Assembly: GCF_000317205.1 (NCBI RefSeq)
Contig: NZ_AJLK01000020.1
Coordinates: forward strand, 1 to 64,000
DNA: 64,000 nt
Origin: Fischerella muscicola PCC 7414
GTDB taxonomy: Bacteria > Cyanobacteriota > Cyanobacteriia > Cyanobacteriales > Nostocaceae
Direction: 5' to 3'
Positions 18,087 to 58,511 of this stretch are shown one piece after another. Position 1 is the first letter of the stretch; the number at the start of each line of letters is the position of its first letter. A model generated the notes under the pieces. That model saw only the letters and a program-made list of their open reading frames with translations, did no database searches and was not told the DNA's origin. Both the position numbers and the translations under genes were made by a program.

Positions 18087-18204
18087 ACCAAGTTGGATAT
18101 AATTTTAGGAATTTAAGTTAGTTTATCTCACTGAGAAACCAACTTGGTTTTAAAATTTCTTAGTGATCAAACTGACCACTAATAACTATTAACTATTAAC
18201 TGAT

Positions 18205-37834: not shown

Positions 37835-39943
37835 TCAACGTGGTTGCAAGAAAATTCCTATGCCATTATGAACACGAGCTGCGGTATTGGGGAAACGGTC
37901 TAGAAGTTGCCCTCCTAAGTAAAGACTGGTAGAACTACCACCGTCCAGATTTAACGCATCTACGCATCCCATTTGCTGCATTAGTTGAGCGTGTTCTGCC
38001 AAGGTAGGGCCAGCACCACCAACACGACTATGAACAGCAGCGATCATGAGGTTGCCTGTTGTAGTTTTACAAATGGCACTACGGACTGCTTTTTGGACAA
38101 TAAAGGCATTACTGAATTGTTCGCTTTTGGCATCAAGGACAATTTGACGATTTTGTACTAGCAGGGGCCCTGCTCCTAAAATATTGGGGTAATTGCTAAA
38201 TTCAGCAGGAGTGGTGGAACTTTCGATGCGAACTGAAGAACCAACAGGTAACAGCGAAGCAATATTTGTACCATTACCGCGTAAGGTGAGCAAATATCCA
38301 TCTACAGGAATCGGAAAAGTACTTTGACCAACTTTGCCTGCTGGTAACTGATTAATAATTTGATTTTTCTGGACAGTAAGGATAATTTCGTTGTCGGTTA
38401 AGGGAGAATAGTTCGCTCCCCATGCAGGAGTATAACGAGCTATGCCACTTTGGACATAACCACTATTGAGGGTTAAGATCGGCAATTTTTGGTTGTTAGG
38501 AGTGATTAAATTTTCCAACAGAGCCAGACGACCCATGTAAAATTGTCCAGAATCATTCCAAGCGATCGCACCTCGATTCAAAATTGGACTTGACAGCCAT
38601 TGACCATCCCGACGAATTGCCCCCAAAGGTAAGCGATTATTGCGGTTAAAATAACCACCATTAATGGCTGCGACTGCTAATTGCTGTTGCGCTGTCTGCA
38701 ATAGGGGAGCAGTTCCTTCCAGAGTATTGGAGTTGGTTAAAATGGGTTTGATTTTTAAGCCGACGGTACGCGGATTGATTTCTAACCACACGAGTGGAAA
38801 GCGTTCTTGACCTAAATTGATATACTGCTGACGCCAGTTTAATCCCGGAGCCCAAGTAATTGCTCGTGGTAGTAGTGTATCAGGGCGAATATCGATGAGC
38901 AGGCGGTTAGGATTGGGTACAGTGCTAACTAAGGGAGCTAACCCAATCGGAACTTGGAGACGAATAATTGTTTGGTTGTTAACTACCTGCACTTGCTTGA
39001 TTAATGGCGGGGGAGGTGGAGGAGTGTTTTGTTGATTCTCATTTGGTGGCAATAACTGTTTGAGTAGGTTTTCTGGAAATGGTGCAGGAGTAGGAATTTT
39101 TTCTACCGGGGGTGGTGGTGGAGGGGTGTAACGTTGGATTAAAACTGGATCGGCGATGCCATTTAAGGTTATTGTCCAGTCTCTTGTAGTGGGAGCAGCT
39201 GGTTTGGGAACTGGGTTATTTGGATCGTCGCTTAAAGGTTGATTTTGTTTAACTAGTGGTTCTTGGTTAATTTGCCAAGGAGTAGGACGATCTAAATTGA
39301 CGGTGATGCGTTCTATTAAAGATTGTTTTGTCTGAGTAATATCTGTGATTTTGGTGTTGGGTGTGGATATGACTAAGGTATTACCCTGCACTTGCATTTG
39401 CCATCCAGATGTTTTGGCAAAATTGGTCATATCCAAGTAGCGATACCCTCCTGCCAATGTGCTAACTAAAATCGGTGGTTTAGTCGCAGATGAATACCAC
39501 TGGATTGGTTGTTTAGTAGAAATATTGCTGTTTAATAAATCTACGCCGATGAATTGCCTAATTGCTGCATCGCTGATGTGAGTTGTCAATTGACCAGCTT
39601 TCAGACGTCTTTGTAACCATGCCCCTGGCACGATTCGACCATTGAGAGAAATTTGATTACCATAGTATATTACCCCTTGCAAAGGAGGTGCAGGTGGTTT
39701 GGGAATCAGTGTTGGTTTTGATTGAGTTACATTTGGGGATTGGGTAATTTTTGTCTTGGTTTGTTTTTCCGAAGTGATTAACTTTTGAGAAACACTACTA
39801 TAAGCGATCGCACTATCTCCAAGTGCTGTTAAGCACAGTACAGATAAAACCATTGGTGATGCCAAAAACTTGACAAGCTTGCTGATGTTAACAACTACAA
39901 CATAACTGCGATTGTATCGGCTAAAATTCGATGTTTTTACCAT
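37835..39943 (-). CDS. Exported phosphodiester glycosidase family (NAGPA-like) protein
   Basis: 702 residues. A signal peptide or N-terminal anchor (about 22-48, ending GDSAIAYSS) is followed by a Pro-rich region with a possible beta domain (85-340) and two PPPPP linkers. The C-terminal 270 residues form the NAGPA/DUF2233 domain: AINGGYFNRNNRLPLGAI, LRGNGTNIASLLPVGS, LGAGPLLVQNRQIVL, HSRVGGAGPTLAEHAQLMQQMGCVDALNLDGGSSTSLYLG. The NGGYF and LDGGSS motifs are the family active site. It probably hydrolyses sugar-phosphodiester bonds in the periplasm, perhaps in envelope polysaccharide turnover. The central Pro-rich segments (IPTPAPFP, PPPPPP) resemble wall-spanning linkers. Confidence 0.85.
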   Translation of the reverse strand: MVKTSNFSRYNRSYVVVVNISKLVKFLASPMVLSVLCLTALGDSAIAYSSVSQKLITSEKQTKTKITQSPNVTQSKPTLIPKPPAPPLQGVIYYGNQISLNGRIVPGAWLQRRLKAGQLTTHISDAAIRQFIGVDLLNSNISTKQPIQWYSSATKPPILVSTLAGGYRYLDMTNFAKTSGWQMQVQGNTLVISTPNTKITDITQTKQSLIERITVNLDRPTPWQINQEPLVKQNQPLSDDPNNPVPKPAAPTTRDWTITLNGIADPVLIQRYTPPPPPPVEKIPTPAPFPENLLKQLLPPNENQQNTPPPPPPLIKQVQVVNNQTIIRLQVPIGLAPLVSTVPNPNRLLIDIRPDTLLPRAITWAPGLNWRQQYINLGQERFPLVWLEINPRTVGLKIKPILTNSNTLEGTAPLLQTAQQQLAVAAINGGYFNRNNRLPLGAIRRDGQWLSSPILNRGAIAWNDSGQFYMGRLALLENLITPNNQKLPILTLNSGYVQSGIARYTPAWGANYSPLTDNEIILTVQKNQIINQLPAGKVGQSTFPIPVDGYLLTLRGNGTNIASLLPVGSSVRIESSTTPAEFSNYPNILGAGPLLVQNRQIVLDAKSEQFSNAFIVQKAVRSAICKTTTGNLMIAAVHSRVGGAGPTLAEHAQLMQQMGCVDALNLDGGSSTSLYLGGQLLDRFPNTAARVHNGIGIFLQPR

Positions 39944-40711: not shown

Positions 40712-43700
40712 ATGAATAAAAAATCGGTGAATCAAGACCAGGACATGAGATTTGTGGATAACTCACAGCAGTGTACCTACCAAGGACAAAGGTGGCTAGT
40801 TGAAGAAAGAGATGCTTGTGGTGTGGGTTTTATTGCCCATCGTTTAAATCATGCTAGTCACGAAATTGTCTCAAAAGCTTTAGCAGCTTTGACTTGTCTA
40901 GAACACCGAGGTGGTTGCAGTGCTGATCAAGACTCTGGTGACGGTGCAGGGATTTTGACCGCTATTCCCTGGGAGTTGTTCCAACAAGATTTTGCCACAC
41001 GGGGAATAGAATTTCCTAGTAATAATAATGTTGCTGTGGGGATGATATTTTTACCACAAAATCCCCAAGCCGCACAAAAGGCTAAAGCGGTAGTTGAGCA
41101 AGTAGCAGCAGAAGAAAAATTGACTGTACTGGGTTGGAGAGTAGTACCAGTACAACCAGAGTTATTGGGTATACAAGCAAAAGAAAATCAACCCCAAATC
41201 GAACAAGTTTTTTTAGTCTCTGCTGAGAAAAGTGGTGACGAACTGGAACGGCAATTGTATATTACCCGTCGCCTGATCGCTAAAGCTATCCGCAATCACA
41301 ATCACAACTGGTCAGAAGAATTTTATATTTGTTCCCTGTCTACTCGCACAATCGTCTACAAAGGCATGGTGCGTTCAGCTGTTTTGGGAGATTTTTATCT
41401 CGATTTAAAAAACTCAGCTTATCAAAGTGCTTTTGCTGTATATCACCGTCGCTTTAGCACCAACACCATGCCTAAGTGGCCATTGGCACAACCGATGCGG
41501 CTTTTGGGTCATAACGGCGAAATCAACACCTTATTGGGTAATATCAACTGGATGACAGCTAGACAAGCAAGTTTAGAGCATCCAGTGTGGGGCGATCGCA
41601 TTGAGGAACTCAAGCCCTTTGTCAATATTAATAACAGTGACTCGGCAACTTTAGATAATGTCTTTGAGTTACTGGTTCGTTCCGGTCGTAGCCCCCTGGA
41701 AGCCTTGATGATCATGGTTCCAGAAGCCTATCAAAATCAACCATCTCTGCGTGATTACCCGGAGATTATCGATTTCTATGAATACTATAGTGGTCTCCAG
41801 GAAGCATGGGACGGGCCAGCACTTTTAGTATTTAGCGATGGTCGCAAAGTAGGCGCAACCCTGGATCGGAATGGTTTAAGACCTGCGCGTTATTGCATCA
41901 CCAAAGATGACTACATCATCGTTGCTTCCGAAGCTGGAGTTGTGTCATTAGATGAAGCCAACATCATCGAAAAAGGCAGACTCGGGCCAGGACAAATGAT
42001 TGCTGTAGATTTAGAAAGCAATGAAGTCCTGAAAAACTGGGACATCAAGCAGCGCATTGCGAAAAAACAACCCTATGGAGAATGGTTGCGGCAACATCGG
42101 CAAGAACTTAAAACTTTGGTTAATGGTCATTGGTCATCAGTTAATGGTAATGGAATCCACGCCAACGGAAATGGCAATGGACTCCGAACAACCACCAACG
42201 ATCAACCAACACCCCATATAGATAGACAAACCCTGCTACGGCATCAAATTGCCTTTGGCTATACCACAGAAGATGTGGAAATGGTAATTCAGCCAATGGC
42301 AATAGATGGCAAAGAACCAACTTTCTGCATGGGTGATGATATTCCTTTAGCAGTTCTCTCAGAAAAACCCCACCTGCTGTACGACTACTTCAAGCAACGT
42401 TTTGCCCAGGTGACAAACCCCGCTATTGACCCATTGCGGGAAAAATTGGTGATGTCGTTAAAAGTAGAACTAGGCGAACGGGGTAATTTGTTAGACCCCA
42501 AACCCGAATATGCGCGACGGTTGAAACTAGAGTCACCAGTATTGACAGAAGCGGAACTGGAAGCCATTAAAAATTCCGAGTTTACGACAGCTGAGTTATC
42601 CACACTATTTACAATCGCCAAAGGCCCAGAAGAGTTAAAAGCCGCAGTCAAGGCTTTGCAAATCAAAGCAACAGAGGCAGTGCGTGCTGGCGCCAAGATT
42701 TTAGTCCTCAGCGATCGCGCTGGTGAAGGCATCAGTTCAGAATACTCTTACATTCCTCCCTTGTTGGCGGTGGGTGCAGTACACCATCACCTCATTGAGG
42801 AGGGATTGCGGATGAAAGCATCCCTGGTGGTTGATACAGCGCAATGCTGGAGTACTCATCATTTTGCTTGTTTAATTGGCTACGGTGCAGGTGCGGTTTG
42901 CCCGTACATGGCTTTAGAAACAGTGCGTGATTGGTGGGCAGATCCGAAAACACAGCAATTCATGGAGCGCGGTAAAATTGCTACCCTCACCCTAGACCAA
43001 GCGATCGGTAACTATCGTCAAGCTGTAGAAGGTGGTTTGCTGAAAATTCTCTCAAAGATGGGAATTTCCTTACTCGCTAGCTACCAAGCAGCCCAAATAT
43101 TTGAAGCGATTGGTATTGGTGGCGACCTGCTGCAACTGGGTTTCAAGGGTACAACTTCCCGCATCGGCGGTTTGAGTGTCAGCGACCTAGCCCAAGAGGT
43201 GTTATCTTTCCACAGCAAGGCTTTCCCGGAACTGACAACCAAGAAGCTAGAAAACCTTGGTTTTGTCAATTATCGTCCCGGTGGCGAGTACCACATGAAC
43301 AGCCCGGAACTGGCGAAAGCACTGCACAAAGCTGTTGATGGCAAAAACTACGACCACTACGAAGTTTATAAGAAGTATCTGCAACAAAGACCGTTAACTG
43401 CACTGCGGGACTTGCTAGATTTCCAAAGCGATCGCGCGCCCATTCCGATAGAAGAAGTAGAACCAGTCAGCGAAATTGTCAAGCGCTTCTGTACAGGCGG
43501 TATGTCCTTAGGGGCGTTGTCACGGGAAGCTCATGAAACTTTGGCGATCGCCATGAATCGTATCGGTGGTAAATCTAATTCTGGAGAAGGCGGTGAAGAT
43601 CCAGTCCGGTTCACAGTCTTGGATGATGTAGACACTTCTGGTCATTCACCGACCCTCGCTCACCTCAAAGGATTACGCAACGGTGATACCGCTTCCAGCG

Positions 43701-45430
43701 CCATCAAGCAAGTAGCATCGGGACGCTTTGGTGTCACACCAGAGTACCTGATGAGCGCTAAACAAATTGAAATCAAAATCGCCCAAGGTGCAAAACCAGG
43801 GGAAGGCGGACAACTACCAGGGAAAAAAGTCAGCCCCTACATTGCCATGCTGCGGCGCTCGAAGCCTGGTGTCACCCTGATTTCACCACCACCACACCAT
43901 GATATTTACTCGATTGAAGACCTAGCGCAGCTAATTTTTGATTTGCACCAAATTAACCCCAAAGCCCAAGTATCGGTGAAACTAGTTGCAGAAATCGGGA
44001 TCGGCACGATCGCAGCTGGTGTAGCGAAAGCCAACGCTGATATTATTCAGGTTTCCGGTCACGATGGTGGTACAGGCGCATCACCACTGAGTTCGATTAA
44101 GCACGCTGGTTCGCCGTGGGAACTCGGTTTAACAGAAGTGCATCGCGTCCTGATGGAGAATAGCTTGCGGGCTCGCGTGATTCTGCGTGTAGACGGTGGG
44201 ATCAAGAGCGGCTGGGATATAATTATGGGTGCGTTGATGGGAGCAGAAGAATTCGGCTTCGGTTCCATCGCCATGATTGCCGAAGGTTGTATCATGGCCC
44301 GCATCTGTCATACCAATAATTGCCCTGTGGGCGTTGCTTCCCAGAGAGAAGAACTACGCAGGCGGTTTACGGGTATGCCAGAACACGTAGTCAACTTCTT
44401 CTACTTTATCGCCGAAGAAGTGCGGAGCTTGCTAGCAAGACTTGGTTATCGTTCATTGCTAGATATAGTTGGACGCGCTGATTTGTTGAAAGCACGGCAA
44501 GATGTGCATCTGAACAAAACCCAAGCATTGAACCTCGACTGCTTATTACAGCTACCAAACACTAAAACAGACCGTAGCTGGTTAGTGCATGAAGAAGTCC
44601 ACAGCAATGGTGTGGTTTTGGATGATCAATTGCTTGCTGATCCTGATATCCAAGCTGCGATTAGTAATCATACTGTTGTCACGAAGACTGTACCTGTTGT
44701 CAACACTGACAGAACCGTCGGCGCGCGCTTAGCAGGAGCGATCGCTTCTCAATACGGCGACGATGGCTTTGGTGGACAGATTCACCTCAACTTCCAAGGT
44801 AGTGTGGGACAAAGCTTTGGTGCTTTTAACCTACCCGGAATGATTCTTACCTTGGAAGGCGAAGCCAACGACTACGTAGGCAAGGGGATGAATGGCGGTG
44901 AAATTATCATTAAACCGCCTGCGATTGCCAACTACGACTCATCACAAAACGTAATTATTGGTAATACCTGTCTCTACGGTGCTACTGGTGGAATATTATT
45001 TGCCAACGGTTTGGCTGGAGAACGCTTTGCTGTCCGCAACTCGAAAGGTACAGCCGTGATTGAAGGAGCAGGTGATCACTGCTGCGAGTATATGACTGGT
45101 GGGGTAGTTGTTGTCCTTGGTAAAGTCGGACGTAACGTAGGTGCTGGTATGACTGGCGGACTAGCTTACTTTTTGGATGAAGATGGTAACTTCCCAGAAT
45201 TAGTCAACCGGGAAATTGTGACAATTCAGCGAGTTATGACAGCAGCTGGTGAAAAGCAACTCAAAGAGTTAATCACAGCTCATCTGTATCGCACCGAATC
45301 ACCAAAGGCGAAGATGATCCTAGAAAATTGGCAAGAATTCTTGCCTAAATTCTGGCAGTTAGTTCCACCTTCTGAAGCCGATGGTCCAGAAGCTAATCCT
45401 CAACAAGAAAAGCAGTTGAGTCCAGTTTAA
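40712..45430 (+). CDS. glsF: Glutamate synthase large subunit, probably ferredoxin-dependent
   Basis: 1572 residues. The first 35 are a propeptide and Cys36 ([11 protein letters not shown]) is the amidotransferase nucleophile. Glutaminase domain 36-430, central domain, then the FMN/synthase domain ([50 protein letters not shown]). The 3Fe-4S ligands are Cys1193, Cys1199 and Cys1204 ([16 protein letters not shown]). The C-terminal GXGXG helix domain is present ([24 protein letters not shown]). It makes two glutamates from glutamine and 2-oxoglutarate, with GS the main nitrogen entry route. No small NADPH subunit gene is adjacent, and the size favours the ferredoxin type. An Asn/Gly-rich insert at about 470-505 derives from repeats. 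Confidence 0.9.
42116..42215 (+). repeat. In-frame repeat-derived insert in glutamate synthase
   Basis: TTAATGGTCATTGGTCATCA (TCATTGG heptamers as in the spacer at 56.0 kb) and AACGGAAATGGCAATGG encode a low-complexity segment ([14 protein letters not shown]). It lies between the glutaminase and central domains, where a flexible insert is tolerated. Confidence 0.65.
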
Positions 45431-45784: not shown

Positions 45785-46699
45785 CTATTTCTTTGTATTT
45801 GCAATCAACTTATAGTTCTTATCTTGTAATTCTAATAATTCTGGGATCGTGACAAAACGATAGCCTTGTTGCCTTAATTTACTAATAATTTGCGGTAAAG
45901 CTGCTACTGTATGAGAACGATTGCCGCCACCATCATGCATTAACACAATACTACCAGGTTTAGAAGATTTTAGAACTCGACTCGTTAAAATAGGGGCACT
46001 TGGACGACTGTAATCTACTGAATCAACCGACCACATTACTACTGTATATTTATTGCTTTTCGCATAACTAGCTAAACCATTGTGCAGCATCCCACCAGGA
46101 GGGCGAAACAAAGTTGTTTTTGCACCTGTAATTTGAGAGATTAATTCTGATGTATTGTCAATTTCAAAAGCTGCTGCTTGTGGATTAAAAAAGTGATACC
46201 AGTGATGCCAAGTGTGATTGCCAATGACGTGACCTTCTGCCACAATTTGTTTGCCTAAATTGGGATAATTCTTAAGATTTTGTCCAACAACAAAGAATGT
46301 AGCCTTAATATTATTTTCTCTTAATATATTTAGGACTTGTGCAGTGTGGTCAGGCCAAGGGCCATCATCAAAGGTAAGAGCTATGACTTTATCCTTAGGA
46401 GGAAGTTTTGCCTGATTAATTACTGCTCCTTGAAAACGCGATGGTATGATATAAGAAATACCCTTTAATTTTGCCTGTTGTTGCCAACTTGCTAGCATTG
46501 CAACTTTGAATTGTTTGAGTCGTTTTTGAGTCCCTGTTTTGACTTCTTTGTCATTTGTATTTTCTATATTATGTTTAGTGTTAATCTCAGAGGTACTCTG
46601 ATTAATAGGCATAATCAAACCAAGACTCAAGCTGCCGCACAGTGCAATTAGTGAAATTAGTATTCCTTGCGGCCAGACAACAGACTTATTGTTTTCCAC
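45785..46699 (-). CDS. Polysaccharide deacetylase family protein (NodB-like)
   Basis: 304 residues. An N-terminal membrane anchor or signal (about 9-31, PQGILISLIALCGSLSLGLI) is followed by a linker and the NodB domain (100-290). Catalytic motifs are complete: TFDDGPWPDH (Asp-Asp, first motif), HTWHH (HxxxH-type zinc ligands), FRPPGGMLHN, and later IVLMHDGGGNRSHT. It should remove N-acetyl groups from peptidoglycan or an exported polysaccharide outside the inner membrane. It is on the same strand as the GT-C cluster upstream, but 1.2 kb away. No other glycan gene is directly next to it. Confidence 0.9.
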   Translation of the reverse strand: MENNKSVVWPQGILISLIALCGSLSLGLIMPINQSTSEINTKHNIENTNDKEVKTGTQKRLKQFKVAMLASWQQQAKLKGISYIIPSRFQGAVINQAKLPPKDKVIALTFDDGPWPDHTAQVLNILRENNIKATFFVVGQNLKNYPNLGKQIVAEGHVIGNHTWHHWYHFFNPQAAAFEIDNTSELISQITGAKTTLFRPPGGMLHNGLASYAKSNKYTVVMWSVDSVDYSRPSAPILTSRVLKSSKPGSIVLMHDGGGNRSHTVAALPQIISKLRQQGYRFVTIPELLELQDKNYKLIANTKK

Positions 46700-47931: not shown

Positions 47932-49224
47932 TTAACCTACCCACCGATCCTGAGCAAAGCCGATGGCAATCCTGGCTAGCAAAACAGAAAACCAGCCTAT
48001 AATCAGGTATCCTTGACGAGGATAACGCTCCAAAAAAACACCCAGAGCTATACTCAAGGGTACAATACCGTAGGCGAGACGGCTCAGGGATATCGTACCA
48101 CCAGATGCTAGTAACAAAGCAATACCGCAAAAACCGTAAAAAACAGTAACCGAGGTCAATTCTTTACGTAAGCGCCATAAAAGGTAAGCACCTCCTAGCA
48201 CCATGACTGCGTTGAGTAGATTAGTAATATATCGATCGCTAGCCAGTATGAGAGAAATTGTTACTACAGCGTAAAAGACGTAAATCTTAATGACAGAACT
48301 TAACTTTTGTTGTTCGCGCCACAACAGATAACCACTGCTAACTATAATGCTACACAACAGTGGATGTAATAATCTCTGAATCCAGCTGTGCTGTCCGTCT
48401 GATTTACCTAGTGCGATCTCTAACAGCATATTCCACCAACCTTGCCCATCAAATCCTAAAGAAGGACGCCATCCTTTTTGGGCATTGATAAAAGCGATCG
48501 CATCACCAAAATCAATTGCACAATATAGACTGAACAGAAGCAGACCTATCGTCGTAGCAGCAGCAGCTAGGTAGGCGATCCTGGGACGACGTTCTCTCCA
48601 AGCTGCAAGTAACAGGGCTGGAATTAATGCCATACCTGTAGGGCGTGTTGCTGTCGCCATTGCACCCCAAAAGGCAGTCCAGCGATATTGCTGACGATCA
48701 AAGGCACGCAAAGCTGCTGCACTTAAAAACAGATATAGCCCTTCGGTATAAATTACTGTTCCAAATAACGAAAGAGGACACCAAGCTAACACAGTAGTTG
48801 TCCATCTAGCCCCGTTTGTTCCATGATGTTCTGCAACCCAAAAGTATACACAATAAAGGGCTGCTAAAAAGGTGATGTTATTCACTAGTAACCCTGCCAC
48901 TTCAAACGGCAGGCCTAGATTCATGACACCACGAACCATGAGGGGAAACAATGGGAAAAAAGCAATATTGTGTTGACGCCCGTCATTAATAAATTCATAT
49001 CCAGAAGTGGCAATGCTACGATAATGTACGCTATCCCAAGCATCAAATACTCCCAAACCAAAACTGGGTAATACTCCCTCCACAGGTTTGGGTAGGTTTG
49101 GTGCAATAAGCAACATGGCAATCCAAATAAATAATCGGCTGATTAACCAAATTGCTCCTGGAAAAAGGAAATCACTTTCCCATATACTTTTTTTGATAAA
49201 TATCTGAACTTGAGCCATAAGCAT
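47932..49224 (-). CDS. PIG-V/GT-C type mannosyltransferase-like membrane protein (copy A)
   Basis: 430 residues, about ten membrane helices. FDAWDSVHYRSIATSGYEF is the first-loop motif of the PIG-V (GT76) family, with the acidic W-D-S.H pair expected to bind the polyprenyl-phosphate sugar donor. FFPLFPLMVRG, YTEGLYLFLSAAALRA and ATATRPTGMALIPALLL are conserved with copy B at 54753-56012. Family members add mannose to lipid anchors or glycans using dolichol/polyprenyl-phosphomannose. The acceptor in cyanobacteria is unknown. It is the last gene of a five-gene GT-C cluster on this strand. Confidence 0.85.
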   Translation of the reverse strand: MLMAQVQIFIKKSIWESDFLFPGAIWLISRLFIWIAMLLIAPNLPKPVEGVLPSFGLGVFDAWDSVHYRSIATSGYEFINDGRQHNIAFFPLFPLMVRGVMNLGLPFEVAGLLVNNITFLAALYCVYFWVAEHHGTNGARWTTTVLAWCPLSLFGTVIYTEGLYLFLSAAALRAFDRQQYRWTAFWGAMATATRPTGMALIPALLLAAWRERRPRIAYLAAAATTIGLLLFSLYCAIDFGDAIAFINAQKGWRPSLGFDGQGWWNMLLEIALGKSDGQHSWIQRLLHPLLCSIIVSSGYLLWREQQKLSSVIKIYVFYAVVTISLILASDRYITNLLNAVMVLGGAYLLWRLRKELTSVTVFYGFCGIALLLASGGTISLSRLAYGIVPLSIALGVFLERYPRQGYLIIGWFSVLLARIAIGFAQDRWVG

Positions 49225-49629
49225 TTATCTTTAAACTCCTTAGTAAATGTTTTTGCTTATGACTGCAAACGAAATGTCTCTTGGCAATATTTTGTACATT
49301 TCACTCCTCCACCAAATTCAATCATCTACTGAAAAGCAATTCAAGCAACTAATATTTTTGAAGTTTATATTCAGTAGTTAATGCTGAAATATTATTGATA
49401 ATATCCTAATAATTTATATGCACAATTATGGTATTGATATTAACAATTTTTAAGGATAAAAACTTCATCTTACTTTGCCATAATAATCCTCAATCTTGAT
49501 GATATACAGCTACAAATAGAGGTGCGATCGCTATTTTAGTTCTATCCGATTTGTGAAAATTAAATTGGAGTAAAAAACCGCACCAGACACAGAGTAAGCA
49601 GAGGAAGAGAGGGCAAAGAACAAATAATT
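49225..49629. other. AT-rich spacer in the GT-C cluster
   Basis: 405 bp without coding character. CACCAGACACAGAG and similar words near 49580 are dispersed-repeat fragments. It may hold the promoter of PIG-V copy A. Confidence 0.45.
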
Positions 49630-50104
49630 TTACAAATGGTTTAGGATTGTTGAGAGATTTTTCAAAACATAGTGTTCTTCAGTTTTGGTTGAGTTTGTGT
49701 AAGTTATGGAATAATTAGCATTGATATAATCCATAAGATTTTTATCACTTTTCATCTGAGTAGTCCATCTGGTCAAGATAATTTGTTCTGGGTGATATTT
49801 GTTTAATATGGCAAGCATTTCTGCAAACGTCAAATCTCCAGAGTTTATTCTTTTATAGGAGATAACAGCAATTTCAGGCGGCACAATTAAATCATTGTAA
49901 AAAGCGTACATAGGATTATCAGTAAATACCCAATTTGTCAAACTTTTGTATTTTAGAATCATTTGCATTAACTCTAAATTTTTGGGTACACTACCACGAG
50001 GATTTGGGGGAGTGATAATTATTAAGCCAATGAGTATTACAACTAAAGAAGCAGGTAAAATTAATTTTTTATATTGATCAGCTGAAATTTTTTCTGTATT
50101 TTTT
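49630..50104 (-). pseudogene. C-terminal part of the GT39-like gene, shifted out of frame
   Basis: Continuing the upstream gene in the other frame from about 50104 gives NTEKISADQYKKLILPASLV, a membrane helix VVILIGLIIITP, then NPRGSVPKNLELMQMILKY and a soluble C-terminal domain ending LKNLSTILNHL (stop at 49630). The domain (NWVFTDNPMYAFYNDLIVPP, HPEQIILTRW) has the look of the periplasmic end of ArnT/GT39-like transferases. A start at Met 49968 is possible, but a domain without its membrane part makes little sense. Confidence 0.7.
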
Positions 50105-51116
50105 GAGAAAATAAATTATATAATAAGCACACTCCATAAGCAGCAAGCCAACATATAGGAATAGCAAGTAAGGGATAATAGTGATACCAAAGCGGTTGAT
50201 GTTTCAGTAAAATTAATGTGGCGGTAACTAGCCAAGTCAACGGTAATACTCCTTTCTTTTGTTTTTGAGAAATAATTGCCCAGATACCGATGGCAGCGAG
50301 AAATATATAATCATAATCTTGATGGCTCATGTAATTGAGATATTGCAGGTTATTAAAATTTTCTACTCTGGAATCTGGGGGTTGTTGGAGATGGGTAAGA
50401 AGTAATTGTTCTTTATTCCAGAATTGCTGATAGAAAACTCCAAGCAGGCTATAAATTAATCCTAAAGAAATTAGCCATAAAGATATAGATTTGAAAAAGA
50501 ATAACCGATTGTTTTTAATTTTCTTGATTTTGCTACAAAAATCTAATATCTGCAACAATATTAAAGGAATTAAAAATACAGTGAATAATTTCGTTTGTAA
50601 AGATAATGCCAAGCATCCACCAGATAAAATTAGATAAATTTTATAGTAATTTTGTTTATATCTATATAAAAAATAAATAGCTAGCATTGCTAAAGCCAAT
50701 GAGGGAATGCCTATCATTACAGAAATACTTAGACGAATATATAACCAAGAGGTAAATAATAAAAATGTTGCTACTATAGCTGGAAAATGACCTAATTCAA
50801 AAAAGACTATTTGATAAAAACACCAGATTAATATCGCTGAAAATAAAAGCGTTAGTAAGCGGGCAGCAAAGATAGAATGACCAAATAAATTTAGCCATTT
50901 TGATAAAATCACTGTAAAAAGAGGTGGTTGATCATTCCAAATTTGGCTATAAAGCGAAAAACCTTTGGAGTAAAGAACGGCTTTCATTAAATTAAAGCCT
51001 TCATCATAGTCAAATTGAAAAGTTTCTGTCATCGGCGCAAATCTAATGGCAATGACCAAACTTATAAAAAGTAATATGAGAGATAGCTGCAATAAAATAT
51101 TCTTTAGTTTGGACAT
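50061..51116 (-). CDS. GT39/ArnT-like glycosyltransferase, N-terminal part (frameshifted)
   Basis: 351 residues, about nine membrane helices. FQFDYDEGFNLMKAVLYSKG carries the Asp-Glu pair of GT-C fold transferases (first periplasmic loop), followed by QIWNDQPPLFTVIL, as in the dolichyl-phosphate-mannose/ArnT families. The reading frame ends soon after YNLFSQKIQKKFQ. Inserting one A in the A6 run (50099-50104 as T6 on the plus strand) would restore a protein of about 495 residues with the fragment at 49630-50104. So this is a slippage mutation, a phase-variable switch or a sequencing error. The substrate is unknown. Confidence 0.75.
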   Translation of the reverse strand: MSKLKNILLQLSLILLFISLVIAIRFAPMTETFQFDYDEGFNLMKAVLYSKGFSLYSQIWNDQPPLFTVILSKWLNLFGHSIFAARLLTLLFSAILIWCFYQIVFFELGHFPAIVATFLLFTSWLYIRLSISVMIGIPSLALAMLAIYFLYRYKQNYYKIYLILSGGCLALSLQTKLFTVFLIPLILLQILDFCSKIKKIKNNRLFFFKSISLWLISLGLIYSLLGVFYQQFWNKEQLLLTHLQQPPDSRVENFNNLQYLNYMSHQDYDYIFLAAIGIWAIISQKQKKGVLPLTWLVTATLILLKHQPLWYHYYPLLAIPICWLAAYGVCLLYNLFSQKIQKKFQLINIKN

Positions 51117-51340
51117 ACTCTTGCCAATTGTAGGTTGGAGATAGTTGCTAGGGTCGAGTATTGATAAATATTTTAGTTAATAAAGTCTGTCAATAATTTT
51201 AATTCTTGGCTTAGAGTTAAAGTTGTGTAAAGACGACTAAAAAATCTTTTAGTCCACAAAGATTGTACTTTGGCTATTAGCCAAAAATGAAGTAGCCCTG
51301 CCTATAAAACTTAGTGATTACCATCAATTTCTAACTAATT

Positions 51341-52738
51341 TTATTGAGACTGCTTCACAAATAAATAAACGTCGTCGCGTTGGTAAACCAGTTGAAATAA
51401 TTGATTATTTTTCAGTTGATTTACTAAGTTGGCGGCAAACTCTGGGTTGCGAGTACCGTCTGGGTGACGCACGTTTAGCAATATATAATCAAATGGAGTG
51501 AAGCTTACGGGCTGGCCACTAATATCATCCACAAATTGAATCATCGGACGGTGACTTAAATGTGGGGCAATGCTGTGGGTAGTTAAAACAGGGCCTTTTG
51601 TCTGCACTTGAGCGATCGCTTCGGTCGTTGCTTGCCAATTGTCAACTGTTCTGAGATATCGTGACCAAAAATAGCCGTATTTTCCTAACACCATAAAAGC
51701 CAATAATGCCCACAAAATTATTGCCCTTCTGGTACGCAGCCATCCTTTATCAGCAGCAAGACTAGCAATTACAGCCACTATTAAGAAAGGCAGTATAGGT
51801 AAAGAATATTGATGAATTAAGTCACGTTGGGCTGGCTTGTCAGAAAGAATATTCAAAACTAATGCTGGAATTGCACTTACCAAAGGAGTTAAATGTTTAG
51901 GTGTGAGTCCCCAAATTAAGGGTGCAACTAATAATGCTAAATATTCCAGCGTCTTGAGTGAAAATACCCTCTCTAAAACAATATTTGGCTTCAGCACAAG
52001 ATTGCTAGCAATTGCGATTACAGAATCGCCTAAATAGCTGTAACGTGAAACTGCTGCTACCTCACTATTACTAAAAAAGGGAATGATCACTTGGCTAGCT
52101 ATTAAAAACCAACTGATGCCAGCAATCAGGGCGAATGTACCGTAAAAACGCCGTCGTTCAAATACCAGCAACCAAAAACCCATTGCCGTTACCGTCAGCG
52201 ATAACACGGCTTTACAACCCAAAATAAAAATAGTGCCAAGGCAAAACCACACTATCTTACCTAACCGTGCTGCCAAAACAACCCCTAAAAATACAGGAAT
52301 TGCCATCACTTCTGGGTGGAATTCAAAGAGATTGACATTAAAAATCAATGGATACAGCAGATAAACTGCTGCCATTGCCACTGCTTGGCTTTCCTTCAGT
52401 CCTGCTTGTAGGGCAAGATAATAAGTTGGTACAGCACCCAAAGCCAAAGAAACAGCTTGTACAGCTAACAACCAGTAGGCGCTGGGATAAATTTTGTAGA
52501 GTAAAGCCAATGGATAGACTGCCCAAGCTGCATGGTTCCCCATGTGATGAAAGCCCAAAAAAGAGGAAATAGGCGGCTGTCCTTGGCTGATTAAGTAAAC
52601 AACCTGATCGTAAATTCCCAGATCGAGAACTCCTGACTGATACAGTGTATGCCTGATGCTGCTGCACGCAAATAACACTAAGGCACTAATGCCAGTCATC
52701 CAACCTATAATGCCAAGCTGAAAAAGTTGTTTTTTCAC
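51341..52738 (-). CDS. DUF2079 membrane protein (copy A)
   Basis: 465 residues, about eleven membrane helices. The DUF2079 signature is seen near the N-terminus: VLDLGIYDQVVYLISQGQPP followed by SSFLGFHHMGNHAAW; the DLG.YDQ acidic pair resembles the donor-binding site of GT-C enzymes. FNVNLFEFHPEVMAIPVFLG and NILSDKPAQRDLIHQYSLPI are further conserved blocks. The C-terminal 80 residues form a soluble domain (YILLNVRHPDG, YQRDDVYLFVKQ). Function unproven; a lipid-linked sugar transferase is likely. Copy B at 52976 is a close paralogue in tandem. Confidence 0.85.
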   Translation of the reverse strand: MKKQLFQLGIIGWMTGISALVLFACSSIRHTLYQSGVLDLGIYDQVVYLISQGQPPISSFLGFHHMGNHAAWAVYPLALLYKIYPSAYWLLAVQAVSLALGAVPTYYLALQAGLKESQAVAMAAVYLLYPLIFNVNLFEFHPEVMAIPVFLGVVLAARLGKIVWFCLGTIFILGCKAVLSLTVTAMGFWLLVFERRRFYGTFALIAGISWFLIASQVIIPFFSNSEVAAVSRYSYLGDSVIAIASNLVLKPNIVLERVFSLKTLEYLALLVAPLIWGLTPKHLTPLVSAIPALVLNILSDKPAQRDLIHQYSLPILPFLIVAVIASLAADKGWLRTRRAIILWALLAFMVLGKYGYFWSRYLRTVDNWQATTEAIAQVQTKGPVLTTHSIAPHLSHRPMIQFVDDISGQPVSFTPFDYILLNVRHPDGTRNPEFAANLVNQLKNNQLFQLVYQRDDVYLFVKQSQ

Positions 52739-52816
52739 TCCTCGTAAACAGTAAAAAAGATTGTTAATGTTTTCTTAACCTAATTATTTTACGGTTTTCT
52801 GGAAAAAAGACAGAAG

Positions 52817-52962
52817 TAAGTCGGCACGAATGTACCAGACGTGGCATGGCACGTCTGGTACAAGTTGGGGTCGTCATTCGTCATTTGTCATTGGTAAGGG
52901 TTTTAAGTATGTTTACTTTTCGTGACATAGTTATGTTTATTCTCATCGACTTATTTAGAGAT
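52817..52962. repeat. ~130-bp dispersed element, copy 2, with palindrome
   Basis: Matches 4534-4665 over AAGTCGGCAC, the palindrome (52832-52861, GTACCA flanks, one arm mismatch), AGTTGGGGTCGTCATT, GGTAAGGGTTTT, TGTTTACTTTTCGTGA and TTATGTTTATTC. It lies in the 237-bp spacer between the two DUF2079 genes. Confidence 0.65.
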
Positions 52963-52975
52963 TTTTAAGTTTAAA

Positions 52976-54397
52976 TTAACTCGTTTTATCTCTAACAGAA
53001 GAGTTTTTCACAAATAAATAAACGTCGTCTTGCTGATAGCTGAGTTGAAACTGTTTAGTATTTTTGAGTTGATTGATCAAATTGATCGCAAAATCGCGAT
53101 TACTTAGCCAACCAGGATGACGGGCATTTAAGAGTATATATTCAAATTTCGTCAGATCTGCTTGCGGCGAGTTTGCATCTGTAAACTCGATCTGTGGGCG
53201 ATGGGCTAAATGAGTGGCAATTTCGGCAGTAGTATAAACACCTCCTTGAGTTTGAACTTGGGCGATCGCTTGCCGTGTCGCTTGCCAAGTATCCAACGAA
53301 TCCAGATAAATTGTCCAGAAATAACCGTATTTACCTAATGCAAAAAAAGCTACTAAAGACCAGAGGATAATTTTTCTTGGTTTTTGTATCCATCCTTGGC
53401 CAGCAGCTAGGGTTTGGATGACGACCACTAACAAAAAAGGTAATATTGGGAGAGAATACTGATGCACTAAGTTTCTTTGCTGGCTAGCATCAGCAAGAAT
53501 ATTCAACATGAGTGTGGGAATTGCACCAATCAGGGGTAGCAGATATCGAGGTGCAATTCCCCAAATAACTGGTGCAAACAGTAAAGCTAAATATTCTAGA
53601 GTATCGAGGGAGAAAATTTTTCCCAGAACTAAGTTTGGATTGAACAGCAGATTCTGGACTATTTCAGCAAAGGAATTCCCCAGGTAGCTATAGCGTGAGA
53701 TGTGACGAGTGACTGAGGCTGCTTCTCCACCAAAAAAAGGGATGATTACTTTGGTCGCGATCGCAAACCAAACAATACCACTAAGTACAGCGATCGCACC
53801 ACATAGCCGCCTTTTTTCAAATACCAGTAGCCAGACTCCCATTGCTGCAACTGTGAGAGACAATACTACCTTACATCCCAACACTAAGAAGATAGTGAAA
53901 CAAAACCAGCCAAATTTTGCTAAACGAGCAGCTAAAATTGCTCCTAAGAGTGCAGGTAGGGCGATGACTTCTGGGTGAAAGTCATACAGATTAACGTTAA
54001 ATACCAATGGATATAACAGATAAACTACTGCGATCGCTATGGCTTGCCGCGTCGTGAGTCCAGTTTGACGCGCGATCAAATTGGTAAACAGCGCACCTGA
54101 TGCTAAGGCAATTGCCTGCACAAGCAACAACCAGTAAACAGTAGGATAGATTTTATAAAGTAAAGCTAATGGATAGAAAATTATAGCGGCATGATCCCCA
54201 AGAATGTGAAACCCCAAGAATGAGGAAATAGGGGACTGTCCTTGGCTAATCAAGTAGACGGCTTGATCAAAAATTCCCAAATCCCAAGCGGCTGAGTGAA
54301 ACAGTACATGTCGTAAACTGCTACACCCAAATAACACTAAGGCACTAGCGCCAGTTATGAAACCAACAGTGCCAAGCCGAAAAGGTAATGTTTTCAC
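52976..54397 (-). CDS. DUF2079 membrane protein (copy B)
   Basis: 473 residues, same layout as copy A. AAWDLGIFDQAVYLISQGQS, SSFLGFHILGDHAA, NVNLYDFHPEVIALPALLG, NILADASQQRNLVHQYSLPI and the C-terminal YILLNARHPGW and YQQDDVYLFVKN align throughout; my rough impression is well over half identical. The pair arose by tandem duplication, and a dispersed repeat lies between them. GT-C-type transfer of a lipid-linked sugar outside the membrane is inferred. Complete and apparently intact. Confidence 0.85.
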   Translation of the reverse strand: MKTLPFRLGTVGFITGASALVLFGCSSLRHVLFHSAAWDLGIFDQAVYLISQGQSPISSFLGFHILGDHAAIIFYPLALLYKIYPTVYWLLLVQAIALASGALFTNLIARQTGLTTRQAIAIAVVYLLYPLVFNVNLYDFHPEVIALPALLGAILAARLAKFGWFCFTIFLVLGCKVVLSLTVAAMGVWLLVFEKRRLCGAIAVLSGIVWFAIATKVIIPFFGGEAASVTRHISRYSYLGNSFAEIVQNLLFNPNLVLGKIFSLDTLEYLALLFAPVIWGIAPRYLLPLIGAIPTLMLNILADASQQRNLVHQYSLPILPFLLVVVIQTLAAGQGWIQKPRKIILWSLVAFFALGKYGYFWTIYLDSLDTWQATRQAIAQVQTQGGVYTTAEIATHLAHRPQIEFTDANSPQADLTKFEYILLNARHPGWLSNRDFAINLINQLKNTKQFQLSYQQDDVYLFVKNSSVRDKTS

Positions 54398-54752
54398 TGG
54401 TTATTGGTTAGTTGTTGGTGGTTGTTTGTTGGTTGTTGGTTGTTGATTGTTGGTTGTTGTTGGTTGTTGTTGGTTGTTGGTGGTTGTTTGTTGGTTGTTG
54501 GTTGTAGAGACGCGATGTTCCTCGCGTCTCTACATTAGTGGTTAGTGTTTAGTTCTTTACTCCTCACACTCCTCACACTCCTCATACTCCTCACACTCCT
54601 CATACTCCTCACACTCCTCACACCTCCCCACCTCCCCATCTCCCCACCTCCCCACTGCCCCTAATCCCCACTCCCTGTCGGTCGCGGGGGCCGGTGAGTT
54701 CCCCACCTCCCCATCTCCCCACCTCCCCACAGCCCCACCTCCCACCTCCCCA
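54398..54752. repeat. Repeat block: TTGGTTG array, palindrome, 9-nt and 7-nt arrays
   Basis: TTGGTTG/TTGTTGG units (54403-54500) lead to a palindrome (54504-54533: GTAGAGACGCG...CGCGTCTCTAC), CTCCTCACA 9-mers (54560-54626) and CCCCACC/CCCCATC 7-mers on both sides of GGGGCCGGTGAGTTCCCC (about 54687-54704). The last word recurs near 58.1, 58.2 and 62.5 kb. No gene. Confidence 0.8.
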
Positions 54753-56012
54753 TCACCCCACCCAAAGTTCCTGGGCAAACCGCATAGAGAAACTGGCGAG
54801 TAAAATTGTGAAGAAGCATAAGGTTAAATATCCGTAACGAGGATAGCGAGACAATAACACACCAAGGGCGATACTGAATGACACAATGCCGTAAGCAATG
54901 CGACTAAGTGACCAAGTACCGCCAGAGGCAAAAATTAATCCCAAACCACAAAAACCATAGATTACTGTGATCAGGGTTAATTTTGTGCGCAAATGCCATA
55001 ACAAGTAAGCACTACCTAAAACCGAAATAGTGTTCAGCAGAGGATCACCTGCCAGTATCCATAAAAGTAAAAATAAAGCTGCAAATCCATAATCTGCCTT
55101 GGCTGCACCCAGGCGTTGGCGATCGCGCCAAATCAAAAAACCAATAATCACGATCGCAGCAAATAATAGCGGATGCAGGGGATCTTTAATCCAGCCATGT
55201 TTCCAATTAGCTGTGCCTACTGTAATTTGCATTAGCATTTTCCACCAACCTTGCCAATCAAATCCCACAGTTGAACGCCAGCCTTTTTGGGCATGAATAA
55301 ATGCCAGAGGATCGTCAAACTGGATTTGACAATACAGGCTGAACAGCAGTATGCCACCAGAAGTGGCTAAACCAGCAAGATAAGCAATAGGCGATCGCTT
55401 TTGTTTCCAAGCAGTAATTAAAAAAGCTGGGATCAATGCTAATCCTGTGGGACGTGTCGCTGTTGCCATTGCCCCACAAACAGCAGTCCAAGTGTACCGA
55501 TGTTGATCAAAAGCCCGTAAAGCTGCTGTACTCAAAAATAAATACAGTCCTTCAGTATAAATTACTGCTGTAAACATTGACAGCGGACACCATGCCAGTA
55601 CAGCTGTTGCCCATCTTGCTCCCTGGAGATTGTGAAATTCCTTTACCCAAAAGTACACACAGTAAAGTGCGGCTAAAAAAGCAACATTGTTTACTATTAC
55701 CCCTGCGACTTCAAATGGCAAGCCAAAATTCATCATCCCCCGCACAATCAGAGGAAATAAGGGAAAAAAGGCTACATTGTGACCCTTGCCATCATTGAGG
55801 TATTCATATCCTAAGGTGGCGATATTGCGGTAATGAACACTATCCCAAGCATCAAAAACCCCCCAGCCAAAAATCGCGTCTTTACCTCCTGGCGGTGCAT
55901 CCAAAAAAGGAGCAAGCAATAACATGACACTCCAAATCACCAGCCTACTGGTTAGCCATATTGTTGCTGGAAAGAATAAATCGTTTTTGAATAAGCTTTT
56001 GTTATTGGTCAT
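54753..56012 (-). CDS. PIG-V/GT-C type mannosyltransferase-like membrane protein (copy B)
   Basis: 419 residues, about ten membrane helices, closely similar to copy A all along: FDAWDSVHYRNIATLGYEYL, FFPLFPLIVRGMMNFGLPFE, YTEGLYLFLSTAALRAFDQ, ATATRPTGLALIPAFL and a final SRIAYGIVSFSIALGVLLSRYP. The WDS.HY loop keeps the donor-site residues. It is the first gene of the minus-strand GT-C cluster. The stop codon is next to CCCCATC repeat text. Mannose is only the family default; the sugar could differ. Confidence 0.85.
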   Translation of the reverse strand: MTNNKSLFKNDLFFPATIWLTSRLVIWSVMLLLAPFLDAPPGGKDAIFGWGVFDAWDSVHYRNIATLGYEYLNDGKGHNVAFFPLFPLIVRGMMNFGLPFEVAGVIVNNVAFLAALYCVYFWVKEFHNLQGARWATAVLAWCPLSMFTAVIYTEGLYLFLSTAALRAFDQHRYTWTAVCGAMATATRPTGLALIPAFLITAWKQKRSPIAYLAGLATSGGILLFSLYCQIQFDDPLAFIHAQKGWRSTVGFDWQGWWKMLMQITVGTANWKHGWIKDPLHPLLFAAIVIIGFLIWRDRQRLGAAKADYGFAALFLLLWILAGDPLLNTISVLGSAYLLWHLRTKLTLITVIYGFCGLGLIFASGGTWSLSRIAYGIVSFSIALGVLLSRYPRYGYLTLCFFTILLASFSMRFAQELWVG

Positions 56013-56274: not shown

Positions 56275-57471
56275 GTGAAAGCAATAACTCTTCTTGGTTC
56301 TACTGGCTCTATTGGTACTCAAACCTTAGATATTGTCGCTAATAACCCCGATAAGTTTCGGATTGTTGGCTTAGCGGCTGGGAATAATGTGGAATTGTTA
56401 GCTGCTCAAATTCGGCAGTTTCGACCGAGTATAGCAGCGATTTGTGCAGAGGAAAAATTACCAGCACTCAAGGAAGCGATCGCTGATCTTGATCCCCAAC
56501 CAATTCTCATGGCTGGTGATGCGGGAATTGTAGAAGTCGCCCGTTACGGTGATGCCCAAACTGTGGTAACGGGTATTGTTGGCTGTGCAGGATTATTACC
56601 GACGATCGCCGCCATTGAAGCTGGTAAGGATATCGCTTTAGCTAACAAAGAAACTCTTATTGCTGGCGGGCCTATTGTTCTACCTCTGATTGAGAAACAT
56701 GGGATAAAATTATTACCAGCAGATTCAGAACATTCGGCAATATTTCAGTGTTTACAAGGCGTACCACAAGGTGGTTTGCGAAAAATTTTACTTACAGCTT
56801 CTGGTGGCGCTTTCCGCGATTGGCCTACAGAAAAATTAGCAGAAGTGACTGTTGCTGATGCCCTGAAACATCCCAATTGGTCGATGGGGCGGAAAATTAC
56901 TGTAGACTCAGCCACTTTGATGAATAAGGGATTGGAAGTAATTGAAGCTCATTTTTTGTTTGGCTTGGATTATGAGGACATTGAAATTGTCATCCATCCC
57001 CAAAGTATTATTCACTCTTTAATAGAACTTCAGGATACCTCGGTGTTAGCTCAACTCGGCTGGCCTGATATGCGCTTACCTTTGCTTTATGCTTTATCTT
57101 GGCCGGAACGCATTTACACCGACTGGGAACGATTAAATTTGGTAAAAGCTGGCAATTTGACCTTCCGGGAACCAGACCACGAGAAGTATCCTTGTATGCA
57201 GTTGGCCTATGCTGCTGGTAAAGCTGGTGGTTCTATGCCCGCTGTTTTGAATGCGGCAAATGAACAAGCCGTAGCATTATTTTTGGAAGAAAAAATTAGT
57301 TATTTAGATATTGCCCGGTGTATTGAATCGGTGTGCGATCGCTTCTCACCCAATAACCGTTCAAATCCCACTTTAGATGACATTTTGCTTGCCGATCAAT
57401 GGGCTAGGCAAGAAGTTTTGACTGCCACTAAAAATTTAGAATCTCGCCCACATATAATTTCCTTGCGATAA
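56275..57471 (+). CDS. dxr: 1-deoxy-D-xylulose 5-phosphate reductoisomerase
   Basis: 398 residues, GTG start at 56275. [15 protein letters not shown] is the NADPH site. [35 protein letters not shown] and [28 protein letters not shown] supply the metal- and substrate-binding residues. It makes methylerythritol 4-phosphate, the committed step of the MEP isoprenoid pathway. It lies alone, with a strong hairpin after the stop. The only link to its neighbours is that the adjacent GT-C enzymes use polyprenyl carriers made from this pathway. Confidence 0.95.
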
Positions 57472-58345: not shown

Positions 58346-58375
58346 GTACCAGACGTGCCATGGCACGTCTGGTAC
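58346..58375. repeat. 30-bp perfect palindrome
   Basis: GTACCA + GACGTGCCATGGCACGTC + TGGTAC. Fourth member of the family with matching changes on both arms. Confidence 0.8.
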
Positions 58376-58511
58376 AACAACCAACAACCAACAACCAACA
58401 ACCAACAACCAACAATCAACAACCAACAACCAACAACCAACAATCAACAATCAACAATCAACAATCAACAACCAACAACCAACAACCAACAATCAACAAC
58501 CAACAATCAAC
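58376..58511. repeat. CCAACAA heptanucleotide array
   Basis: About nineteen units of CCAACAA/TCAACAA in a row, the complement of the TTGTTGG arrays at 36.2 and 54.4 kb. It runs up to the stop codon of the thioesterase gene. Confidence 0.9.

Follow-up and report, generated by a model that had tools for sequence, protein, structure and literature searches.

The window, by which we mean the whole 64,000-nucleotide stretch of DNA analysed here, carries a minus-strand run of five membrane-protein genes between a presumed dxr homologue and a polysaccharide deacetylase gene, an interval that we call the island. Its features are:

40712..45430, plus strand: open reading frame, outer flank, which we take from its sequence to be a glutamate synthase of gltB/glsF type; position kept in many relatives
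45785..46699, minus strand: polysaccharide deacetylase (PF01522, 4.8e-35), far island flank, in relatives too
47932..49224, minus strand: PIG-V type GT-C transferase B, 430 aa (PF04188, 1e-9)
49630..51116, minus strand: GT39/PMT_2-type gene, frameshifted, N-terminal part 50061-51116 and C-terminal part in another frame to 49630 (PMT_2, 2.9e-13)
51341..52738, minus strand: DUF2079 protein B (465 aa; PF09852, 5.4e-86), an old paralogue whose clade is separate from that of A
52976..54397, minus strand: DUF2079 protein A, predicted GT-C transferase, 473 aa (PF09852, 2.1e-86)
54753..56012, minus strand: PIG-V type GT-C transferase A, 419 aa, adjoining dxr (PF04188, 1.6e-8)
56275..57471, plus strand: open reading frame, near island flank, presumably dxr (named on its sequence, not by a family call); 59 of 60 family genomes have a match (E 1e-50 or better)

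The five reading frames were called and all Pfam matches exceed the curated cut-offs, bearing out the minus-strand run and the family order (PIG-V, DUF2079, DUF2079, GT39/PMT_2, PIG-V) described in an earlier sequence-only reading, whose quoted motifs are likewise present (AWDSVHY twice, DLGIYDQ/DLGIFDQ, and DYDEG). The intergenic gaps, computed from the ORF coordinates, are wide (224-405 nt) and give no sign of an operon in the window; we suppose that the genes may be co-expressed. Within the window neither promoter-like sites (26, against 27.8 in shuffles) nor terminator-like sites (7, against 8.0) were in excess, and no RNA family matched at its gathering score. Pairwise dN/dS of six genes against F. 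thermalis is 0.08-0.25, indicating purifying selection.

The two PIG-V proteins are 63% identical and the two DUF2079 proteins 62%, and in that sense they are paralogous pairs as had been proposed, but they are not recent duplicates. In quick trees (SH-aLRT support only, midpoint root) each copy groups with counterparts from other genera and families, and recent tandem duplication was rejected for either pair; the clade of PIG-V B comprises 34 rows with an SH-aLRT of 100.

The GT39-like gene belongs to the family assigned to it, with a PMT_2 domain (PF13231) scoring 50.8 bits against a gathering score of 26.1, but it is not intact. Three-frame translation, and tblastn with an intact relative, showed that a 351-aa reading frame stops at 50061 and that the remainder, near the 3' end, continues in another frame to 49630, so that the window as sequenced holds no unbroken frame for a working enzyme at this position. 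Intact proteins in relatives measure 481-496 aa, with the DYDEG motif invariant in 9 of 9, and broken or remnant copies occur in relatives' loci L090, L092, L094 and L156. The frameshift in the window, seen in a single copy, may be a sequencing error or a real mutation. A PDB sequence search with an intact GT39 relative returned no match.

For DUF2079, a check had been set beforehand on whether structural models would lack a GT-C fold; the confident predicted model of DUF2079 A (pLDDT 90.6, pTM 0.90) is of GT-C type. Its best PDB match by VIA-align was ArnT (5f15, Z 18.0, rmsd 5.2, 408 residues aligned), in a tie with Pmt4 (Z 17.6), and all 50 matches listed are GT-C proteins or complexes containing one, the identity of the GT-C chain within complexes being taken from entry titles. 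Known GT-C enzymes possess an acidic motif after TM1, and the catalytic acids of PglB lie in EL1 and EL2, as described in an excerpt of PMC6801728. Across an alignment of 80 of the 95 short DUF2079 sequences (2 from the window and 78 of 93 relatives), the first outer loop after TM1 (EL1) has such an acidic motif, with D39 in 80/80 and D44 in 79/80; H69 is conserved in 80/80, and in the second outer loop (EL2) positions 139 and 143 are D or E in 80/80 and H141 is present in 79/80. The acidic loops are predicted to lie on one face of the membrane, lysine plus arginine amounting to 21 per 100 residues in the predicted inside loops versus 8 outside. By eye, at least one row of the wider DUF2079 set A1 has E at position 39.

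Profile comparison by hhalign, with shallow alignments (Neff 2.0-3.1), gave DUF2079 a probability of 7.4 (E 0.0048) against ArnT-like proteins and of 0.1 against PIG-V, and its profile found no match among solved PDB chains at E 10; no significant sequence-profile link to any of the three emerged. Because the comparison with ArnT-like proteins is not significant, the kinship of DUF2079 with GT-C enzymes rests on fold. Given this predicted fold and the conserved residues, the proposal that DUF2079 is a new transferase family stands as a prediction, and we regard these proteins as one putative GT-C transferase type that is probably catalytic. The literature searched (5.39 million papers) did not contain the name DUF2079, mentioned PF09852 once, in a single paper, and yielded no statement on Pfam clan membership. 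This family, which occurs in 102 of 292 sampled phylum genomes (100 above the Pfam cut-off), gains a testable function from its confident model of GT-C type and the conserved acids of its loops.

The two PIG-V type proteins score 38.7 and 34.8 bits on PF04188 (Mannosyl_trans2/PIG-V; gathering score 22.4), and the match covers positions 58-206 of the 443 in the profile, corresponding to about 140 residues of each protein (61-201 and 53-192). Among 50 aligned rows (2 from the window and 48 of 81 relatives) W56, D57 and E154 are invariant in 50/50; a PDB sequence search with this alignment gave no match. The predicted model of PIG-V A (pLDDT 91.2) has a GT-C fold, with Pmt4 as best PDB match (9i5l, Z 22.8, 299 residues aligned at rmsd 3.7) and AglB within 1 Z unit. 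Relatives hold in the same slot a divergent PIG-V sister of about 450 aa without a Pfam match (prob 88.9, E 2.4e-6).

That DUF2079 and PIG-V genes occur together, as the sequence-only reading expected, proved true of part of the sample. Of the close genomes that contain both, 20 of 25 have them within 10 kb of each other; phylum-wide the figure is 15 of 25 (25 of the 30 with both families had places located; the Fisher test on this phylum linkage ignores relatedness), but 72 of the 102 genomes in the phylum sample that carry DUF2079 lack a PIG-V match. Frequent adjacency could also mean that DUF2079, despite a GT-C fold, is not an enzyme and serves PIG-V as a scaffold or binding partner. Non-catalytic GT-C relatives such as PIG-U do exist, according to an excerpt of PMC7801869, and PIG-U chains (identified from GPI-T titles) are among the DUF2079 fold matches. 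Against such a role stand the acidic positions of EL1 and EL2, kept in 80/80, and the many DUF2079 genomes lacking PIG-V, and we judge it very unlikely.

We examined the island in relatives in two sets. The first consists of 77 named loci, kept from 365 stretches encoding a relative; its 32 complete islands were picked by DUF2079, which is therefore present in 32/32 by construction, while PIG-V is present in 31/32. They show 19 arrangements, a count that scores GT39 fragments as GT39 and leaves aside one long DUF2079 gene (L125) as well as ORFs of less than 300 aa that had no class. The second set, not chosen by DUF2079, consists of 59 dxr-anchored intervals including that of the window (dxr was matched in all but one of 60 family genomes). 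Far flank was reached by 41 of these 59, and 39 of the 41 contain GT-C genes: PIG-V is found in 32, DUF2079 in 28 and ArnT-like proteins in 22, so that 13 are without DUF2079, 9 without a PIG-V profile match and 2 without any GT-C gene. An approximately 400-aa protein of relatives, unk400, without Pfam or NCBIfam match, was counted here among the GT-C types, and no interval rests on it alone. In the other 18 the interval ran for 16 kb or met the end of its contig without coming to the far flank; 7 of these show short-type DUF2079 or PIG-V, and 11, several on short contigs, have neither beside dxr. Among the 41, the L193 interval reached gltB only, through ordinary genes, and in L208 dxr adjoins the deacetylase with nothing classified between.

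Classified interior genes of the islands are transferases, GT2 and methyltransferase, with some unassigned proteins besides; of the recurrent unassigned proteins one representative each was scanned, which added matches to GT22, GT87 and a further PMT_2 type. Forty of 145 same-strand neighbour pairs lie at most 20 nt apart, 18 overlapping (the few large overlaps stem from start-codon choice or gene fragments). A mobile-element origin was rejected, searches of a plasmid collection with DUF2079 A and of a phage collection with PIG-V A, one protein each, both being empty. Searching by locus names that may be wrong, we found no literature on the Anabaena counterparts.

With 19 arrangements among 32 islands, a GT39 gene broken here and donor-type GT2 genes in relatives, the fixed "dedicated system" of the sequence-only reading was not borne out. 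The same variety, with repeated GT39 decay and unassigned proteins, might suggest a merely tolerant insertion site for unrelated membrane genes that share no pathway. We consider this very unlikely, given the GT-C genes in 39 of 41 intervals and the DUF2079/PIG-V neighbours in the phylum sample too. The ArnT-like proteins raise another alternative, that the target of the enzymes is a membrane lipid or a lipid A-like molecule, as it is for ArnT, which also heads the DUF2079 fold matches; one ArnT-like protein scores 111.7 bits against the NCBIfam model of ArnT, whose cut-off is 567. On the other side, likeness to ArnT is common to the whole GT-C class, as the tie with Pmt4 illustrates, and no ArnT-like gene is present in the window's island. 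Lipid modification thus appears quite unlikely.

That a soluble transferase and a flippase are missing is true of the window cluster, which encodes neither a polyprenyl-phosphate-sugar synthase nor a GtrA-type flippase, but relatives' islands do carry GT2. A GT2 homologue of polyprenyl-phosphate-sugar synthases lies in the island in 16 of the 77 named loci and in 16 of the 41 anchored intervals. These are PgfS/ArnC-like, and for two proteins the nearest model was PgfS (294-297 bits, cut-off 500). The host genome has no ortholog of them (best match 28%), but it encodes two synthase homologues outside the cluster, one ArnC-like and one DPM-synthase-like, and a GtrA-type domain (PF04138) at C180 (over cut-off, fused to the DPMS-like enzyme), at C29 (below cut-off) and nowhere else.

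The PgfS scores, and the place of Pmt4 at the head of the PIG-V fold matches in a tie with AglB, make it conceivable that the enzymes O-glycosylate secreted or outer-membrane proteins, in PMT or streptococcal Pgf style, and do not act on polysaccharide; in S. mutans, PgfS and the PMT_2-type PgfM1 modify surface proteins, as reported in an excerpt of PMC5856776. In the island, however, we recognised no gene for a candidate acceptor protein, and its flank is a polysaccharide deacetylase; we hold such protein glycosylation to be unlikely.

The reading that we favour, and consider fairly probable, is that exchangeable transferases decorate a surface glycan with sugars drawn from polyprenyl-phosphate carriers. 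The cluster would encode inner-membrane GT-C glycosyltransferases with active sites toward the periplasm. A cytoplasmic GT2, here perhaps the ArnC-like or DPM-synthase-like protein encoded elsewhere in the genome and in some relatives the island-encoded one, would load a sugar onto polyprenyl phosphate, the putative lipid-phosphate donor would cross the membrane, and each GT-C enzyme would move its sugar to a growing or finished exported glycan, presumably a surface polysaccharide, the outcome being strain-specific side decorations. In favour we count the predicted folds, the loop acids, GT2 in the intervals, the GT-C content, the spacing, the selection and the deacetylase flank; against it, the profile comparison, the intervals with missing genes, the absent GT2 ortholog, DUF2079 without PIG-V and the wide gaps. 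Overall the earlier observation is confirmed in part and its interpretation supported in part.

More tentatively, the dxr-deacetylase interval could serve heterocystous cyanobacteria as a "glycotype" locus, one chromosomal slot, fixed in place, in which at least five Pfam GT-C families (DUF2079, PIG-V, PMT_2, GT22 and GT87), the divergent PIG-V sister and an optional GT2 and methyltransferase are gained, lost or broken to give strain-specific surface sugars, perhaps under cyanophage or grazer selection, with DUF2079 as a new catalytic GT-C family; we regard this broader idea as possible, though falling short of probable. Late sugar decoration in cyanobacteria is, to our knowledge, little mapped, and the island offers a concrete place to seek strain-specific surface glycans.

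Among known systems, the GT-C enzymes of the ArnT, PMT and OST types resemble DUF2079 in whole-model fold and acidic outer loops, the ArnT alignment covering also the C-terminal alpha/beta domain of DUF2079; DUF2079 differs in matching no solved chain by profile at E 10 and in having a predicted activity only. The window PIG-V proteins share with the PF04188 family the Pfam match, the conserved WD after TM1 and the GT-C fold, but only about 140 residues match the profile, and we know of no reason to expect a GPI pathway in bacteria. In the S. mutans PgfS-PgfM1-PgfE-PgfM2 system a GT2 and a PMT_2-type membrane protein are encoded together (excerpt of PMC5856776), and PgfS is nearest to the relatives' island GT2; the window cluster, by contrast, is without GT2, epimerase or acceptor gene and has additional GT-C genes, including DUF2079 and PIG-V. 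In gtrA/gtrB/gtr cassettes, GtrB makes a polyprenyl-phosphate sugar that is later used on a surface glycan, as described in an excerpt of PMC4728340. Unlike these serotype-converting cassettes, the island occupies a fixed chromosomal site, holds several GT-C genes and has no plasmid (DUF2079 A) or phage (PIG-V A) match; what they have in common is the scheme proposed here, in which a polyprenyl-phosphate sugar would serve to modify a surface glycan.

The five GT-C-like membrane genes, all on the minus strand, are flanked by a dxr homologue and a polysaccharide deacetylase; from the dxr side they run PIG-V A, DUF2079 A, DUF2079 B, the gene of GT39/PMT_2 type and PIG-V B, with intergenic gaps of 224-405 nt.

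56275-57471, plus strand, dxr homologue, one flank of the cluster
54753-56012, minus strand, PIG-V A
52976-54397, minus strand, DUF2079 A
51341-52738, minus strand, DUF2079 B
49630-51116, minus strand, GT39/PMT_2-type gene, interrupted by a frameshift
47932-49224, minus strand, PIG-V B
45785-46699, minus strand, polysaccharide deacetylase, other flank of the cluster

All five exceed the curated Pfam cut-offs, and the motifs quoted for them in the sequence-only reading are present in the window. PIG-V A is 92% identical to its counterpart in F. thermalis PCC 7521, Fischerella being nearest by cluster genes among the relatives compared. Short tandem repeats of 7-9 bases occur between PIG-V A and DUF2079 A (54407-54762) and again upstream of a thioesterase-like gene (58375-58511). 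Elsewhere the window encodes an NB-ARC protein (1268-2824), a protein with NB-ARC plus WD40 (10423-12525) and a protein kinase bearing nine matches to the WG repeat (15119-17143).

DUF2079 had been proposed from sequence as a new transferase family, and structure prediction gave a model of the GT-C type. The AlphaFold2 model of DUF2079 A, built with 80 sequences, had a mean pLDDT of 90.6 and a pTM of 0.90. In a Foldseek search of the PDB, ranks 1-21 were all GT-C-fold entries (ALG9, ArnT, DPY19, ALG12, OST and others), of which 13 had E-values of 0.001 or lower, with the first unrelated row at rank 22; TM-scores were 0.34-0.59 for the GT-C rows versus about 0.1 for transporters. With VIA-align, by which helical models may reach Z 13 through common arrangement alone, the best 50 entries (Z 9.4 to 18.0) were all GT-C proteins or complexes containing one, led by ArnT (5f15; Z 18.0, rmsd 5.2 over 408 residues) in a tie with Pmt4 (17.6), and the ArnT alignment covered residues 6-467 of 473. 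The PIG-V A model (pLDDT 91.2) likewise had GT-C entries in its best 50 rows, where Pmt4 (9i5l; Z 22.8, rmsd 3.7 over 299 residues) and AglB (Z 22.4) tie for first place. A sequence-profile search against solved chains gave no match for DUF2079 or for PIG-V, and a comparison of the DUF2079 profile with that of ArnT-like proteins was not significant.

In DUF2079, D39 and H69 are kept in 80/80 sequences and D44 in 79/80, and acids at 139 and 143 are kept in 80/80 and H141 in 79/80. On our reading of helix order in the model, these residues would all lie on the same side of the membrane, in that side's first two loops; K+R per 100 residues is 21 in loops placed inside versus 8 outside. PMC6801728 describes an acidic motif after TM1 in known GT-C enzymes and places the catalytic residues of PglB in the first (D56) and second (D154, D156) outer loops. 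PIG-V keeps W56, D57 and E154 in 50/50.

DUF2079 and PIG-V lie close together in many other genomes. Among 40 close genomes, the window's own included, 33 have DUF2079 and 29 PIG-V, and the two lie within 10 kb in 20 of the 25 having both. In a phylum sample of 292 genomes, DUF2079 was found in 102, PIG-V in 45 and both in 30 (Fisher p 2.6e-6, in a test that ignores relatedness), within 10 kb in 15 of the 25 genomes with located places. The link is frequent, yet not obligatory, because 72 of the 102 genomes with DUF2079 lack a PIG-V match. Many phylum matches are of a longer type of about 550 aa (frames of at least 540 aa among the matches listed). The genome holds a third DUF2079 gene of this long type (556 aa; contig C42, locus L001, 1354-3024), adjoining a GT4 glycosyltransferase gene, and another three-gene PMT_2 group (contig C201, about 11969-18162). 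DUF2079 is also present on a contig filed as Tatlockia (L121, a Legionellaceae MAG), with a PIG-V whose closest relative is the Chlorogloea one; this is probably a misbinned cyanobacterial contig.

PIG-V A and B are 63% identical and DUF2079 A and B 62%, and both pairs look old on trees. A 91-row tree places PIG-V B in a 34-row clade (SH-aLRT 100) that includes copies from Nostoc, Scytonema and Brasilonema; PIG-V A sits outside it, together with Chlorogloeopsis and strain PCC 7702 (9 rows, support 99); in a 110-row tree, DUF2079 A (9 rows, 100) and B (12 rows, 99) occupy distinct clades. All 12 rows of the B clade come from loci with a whole or partial GT39 gene; L090 and L094 have GT39 remnants and no B-type DUF2079.

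The GT39-type gene is broken in the window: its 351-aa frame ends at a stop at 50061, the rest is legible in another frame as far as 49630, and an intact relative aligns in two pieces (residues 1-350 and 329-486). Intact copies of 481-496 aa occur at L041, L042, L047, L055, L087, L088, L089, L102, L111, L114 and L115, at least three of these entries being, to judge from their lengths, one contig present in two collections, and DYDEG is kept in 9/9 relatives. A sequencing error might explain the frameshift in the window itself; loss of the gene has nonetheless recurred among relatives, since L090, L092, L094 and L156 hold broken or remnant copies (L116 lies too near its contig end to be classed).

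Using dxr as the anchor, so that loci were not picked by DUF2079, we found dxr in 59 of 60 family genomes and reached the deacetylase, or the glutamate synthase gene gltB beyond it, in 41. These 41 intervals contain PIG-V (32), DUF2079 (28), ArnT-like (22), GT2 (16), divergent PIG-V (8), GT39 (7), methyltransferase (7) and an unassigned 400-aa type (5), with at least one GT-C gene in 39. The 18 intervals short of the far flank comprise 7 with short-type DUF2079 or PIG-V beside dxr and 11 without (several on short contigs). Among 32 complete islands from named genomes, at loci chosen by DUF2079, there are 19 arrangements of 2 to 6 GT-C genes each. Other interior genes, scanned as single representatives, match GT22, GT87 or another PMT_2 type, the rest having no Pfam match. 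A protein of about 810 aa recurs in six intervals (L181, 6742-9180; L184, L198, L200, L204, L221), with 9-11 hydrophobic segments, a weakly TPR-like C-terminus and no Pfam match over cut-off. A family of about 450 aa (L106 4463-5818, the same as L050 4463-5818, and homologues) has no Pfam or NCBIfam match, and profile comparison (probability 88.9, E 2.4e-6) places it as divergent PIG-V. Since 40 of 145 same-strand neighbour pairs lie within 20 nt and 18 overlap (a few large overlaps being start-codon or fragment effects), the spacing would fit joint expression in these relatives. Near the outer flank of the window's island, 37835-39943 encodes a large protein whose C-terminal part is a NAGPA phosphodiester glycosidase domain.

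The GT2 of relatives' islands matches Glycos_transf_2, and the PgfS and ArnC models below cut-off. A search of the window's genome for its ortholog found none, the best match, on contig C12, being 28% identical. The C12 protein matches solved ArnC at 7e-66 and Synechocystis GtrB (sll0501) at 9e-39, and a C180 protein, which also bears a GtrA-type domain, matches solved DPM synthase 5mlz at 1.7e-84; with these two, polyprenyl-phosphate sugars would plausibly be available.

Given the predicted folds, residues, linkage and island, all computed, DUF2079 is a strong candidate GT-C transferase family. We infer the donor, acceptor and catalysis of the cluster enzymes; on the best reading, these are GT-C transferases that face the periplasm, draw on polyprenyl-phosphate sugars and decorate a surface glycan, encoded in a chromosomal island whose position is fixed but whose content varies. 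The sequence-only reading was right that the window cluster contains neither a soluble transferase (GT2) nor a flippase. The cluster may be likened to known GT2/GT-C cassettes in its mode of working, yet as present in the window it is not a member of them, because GT2 and flippase are absent from it.
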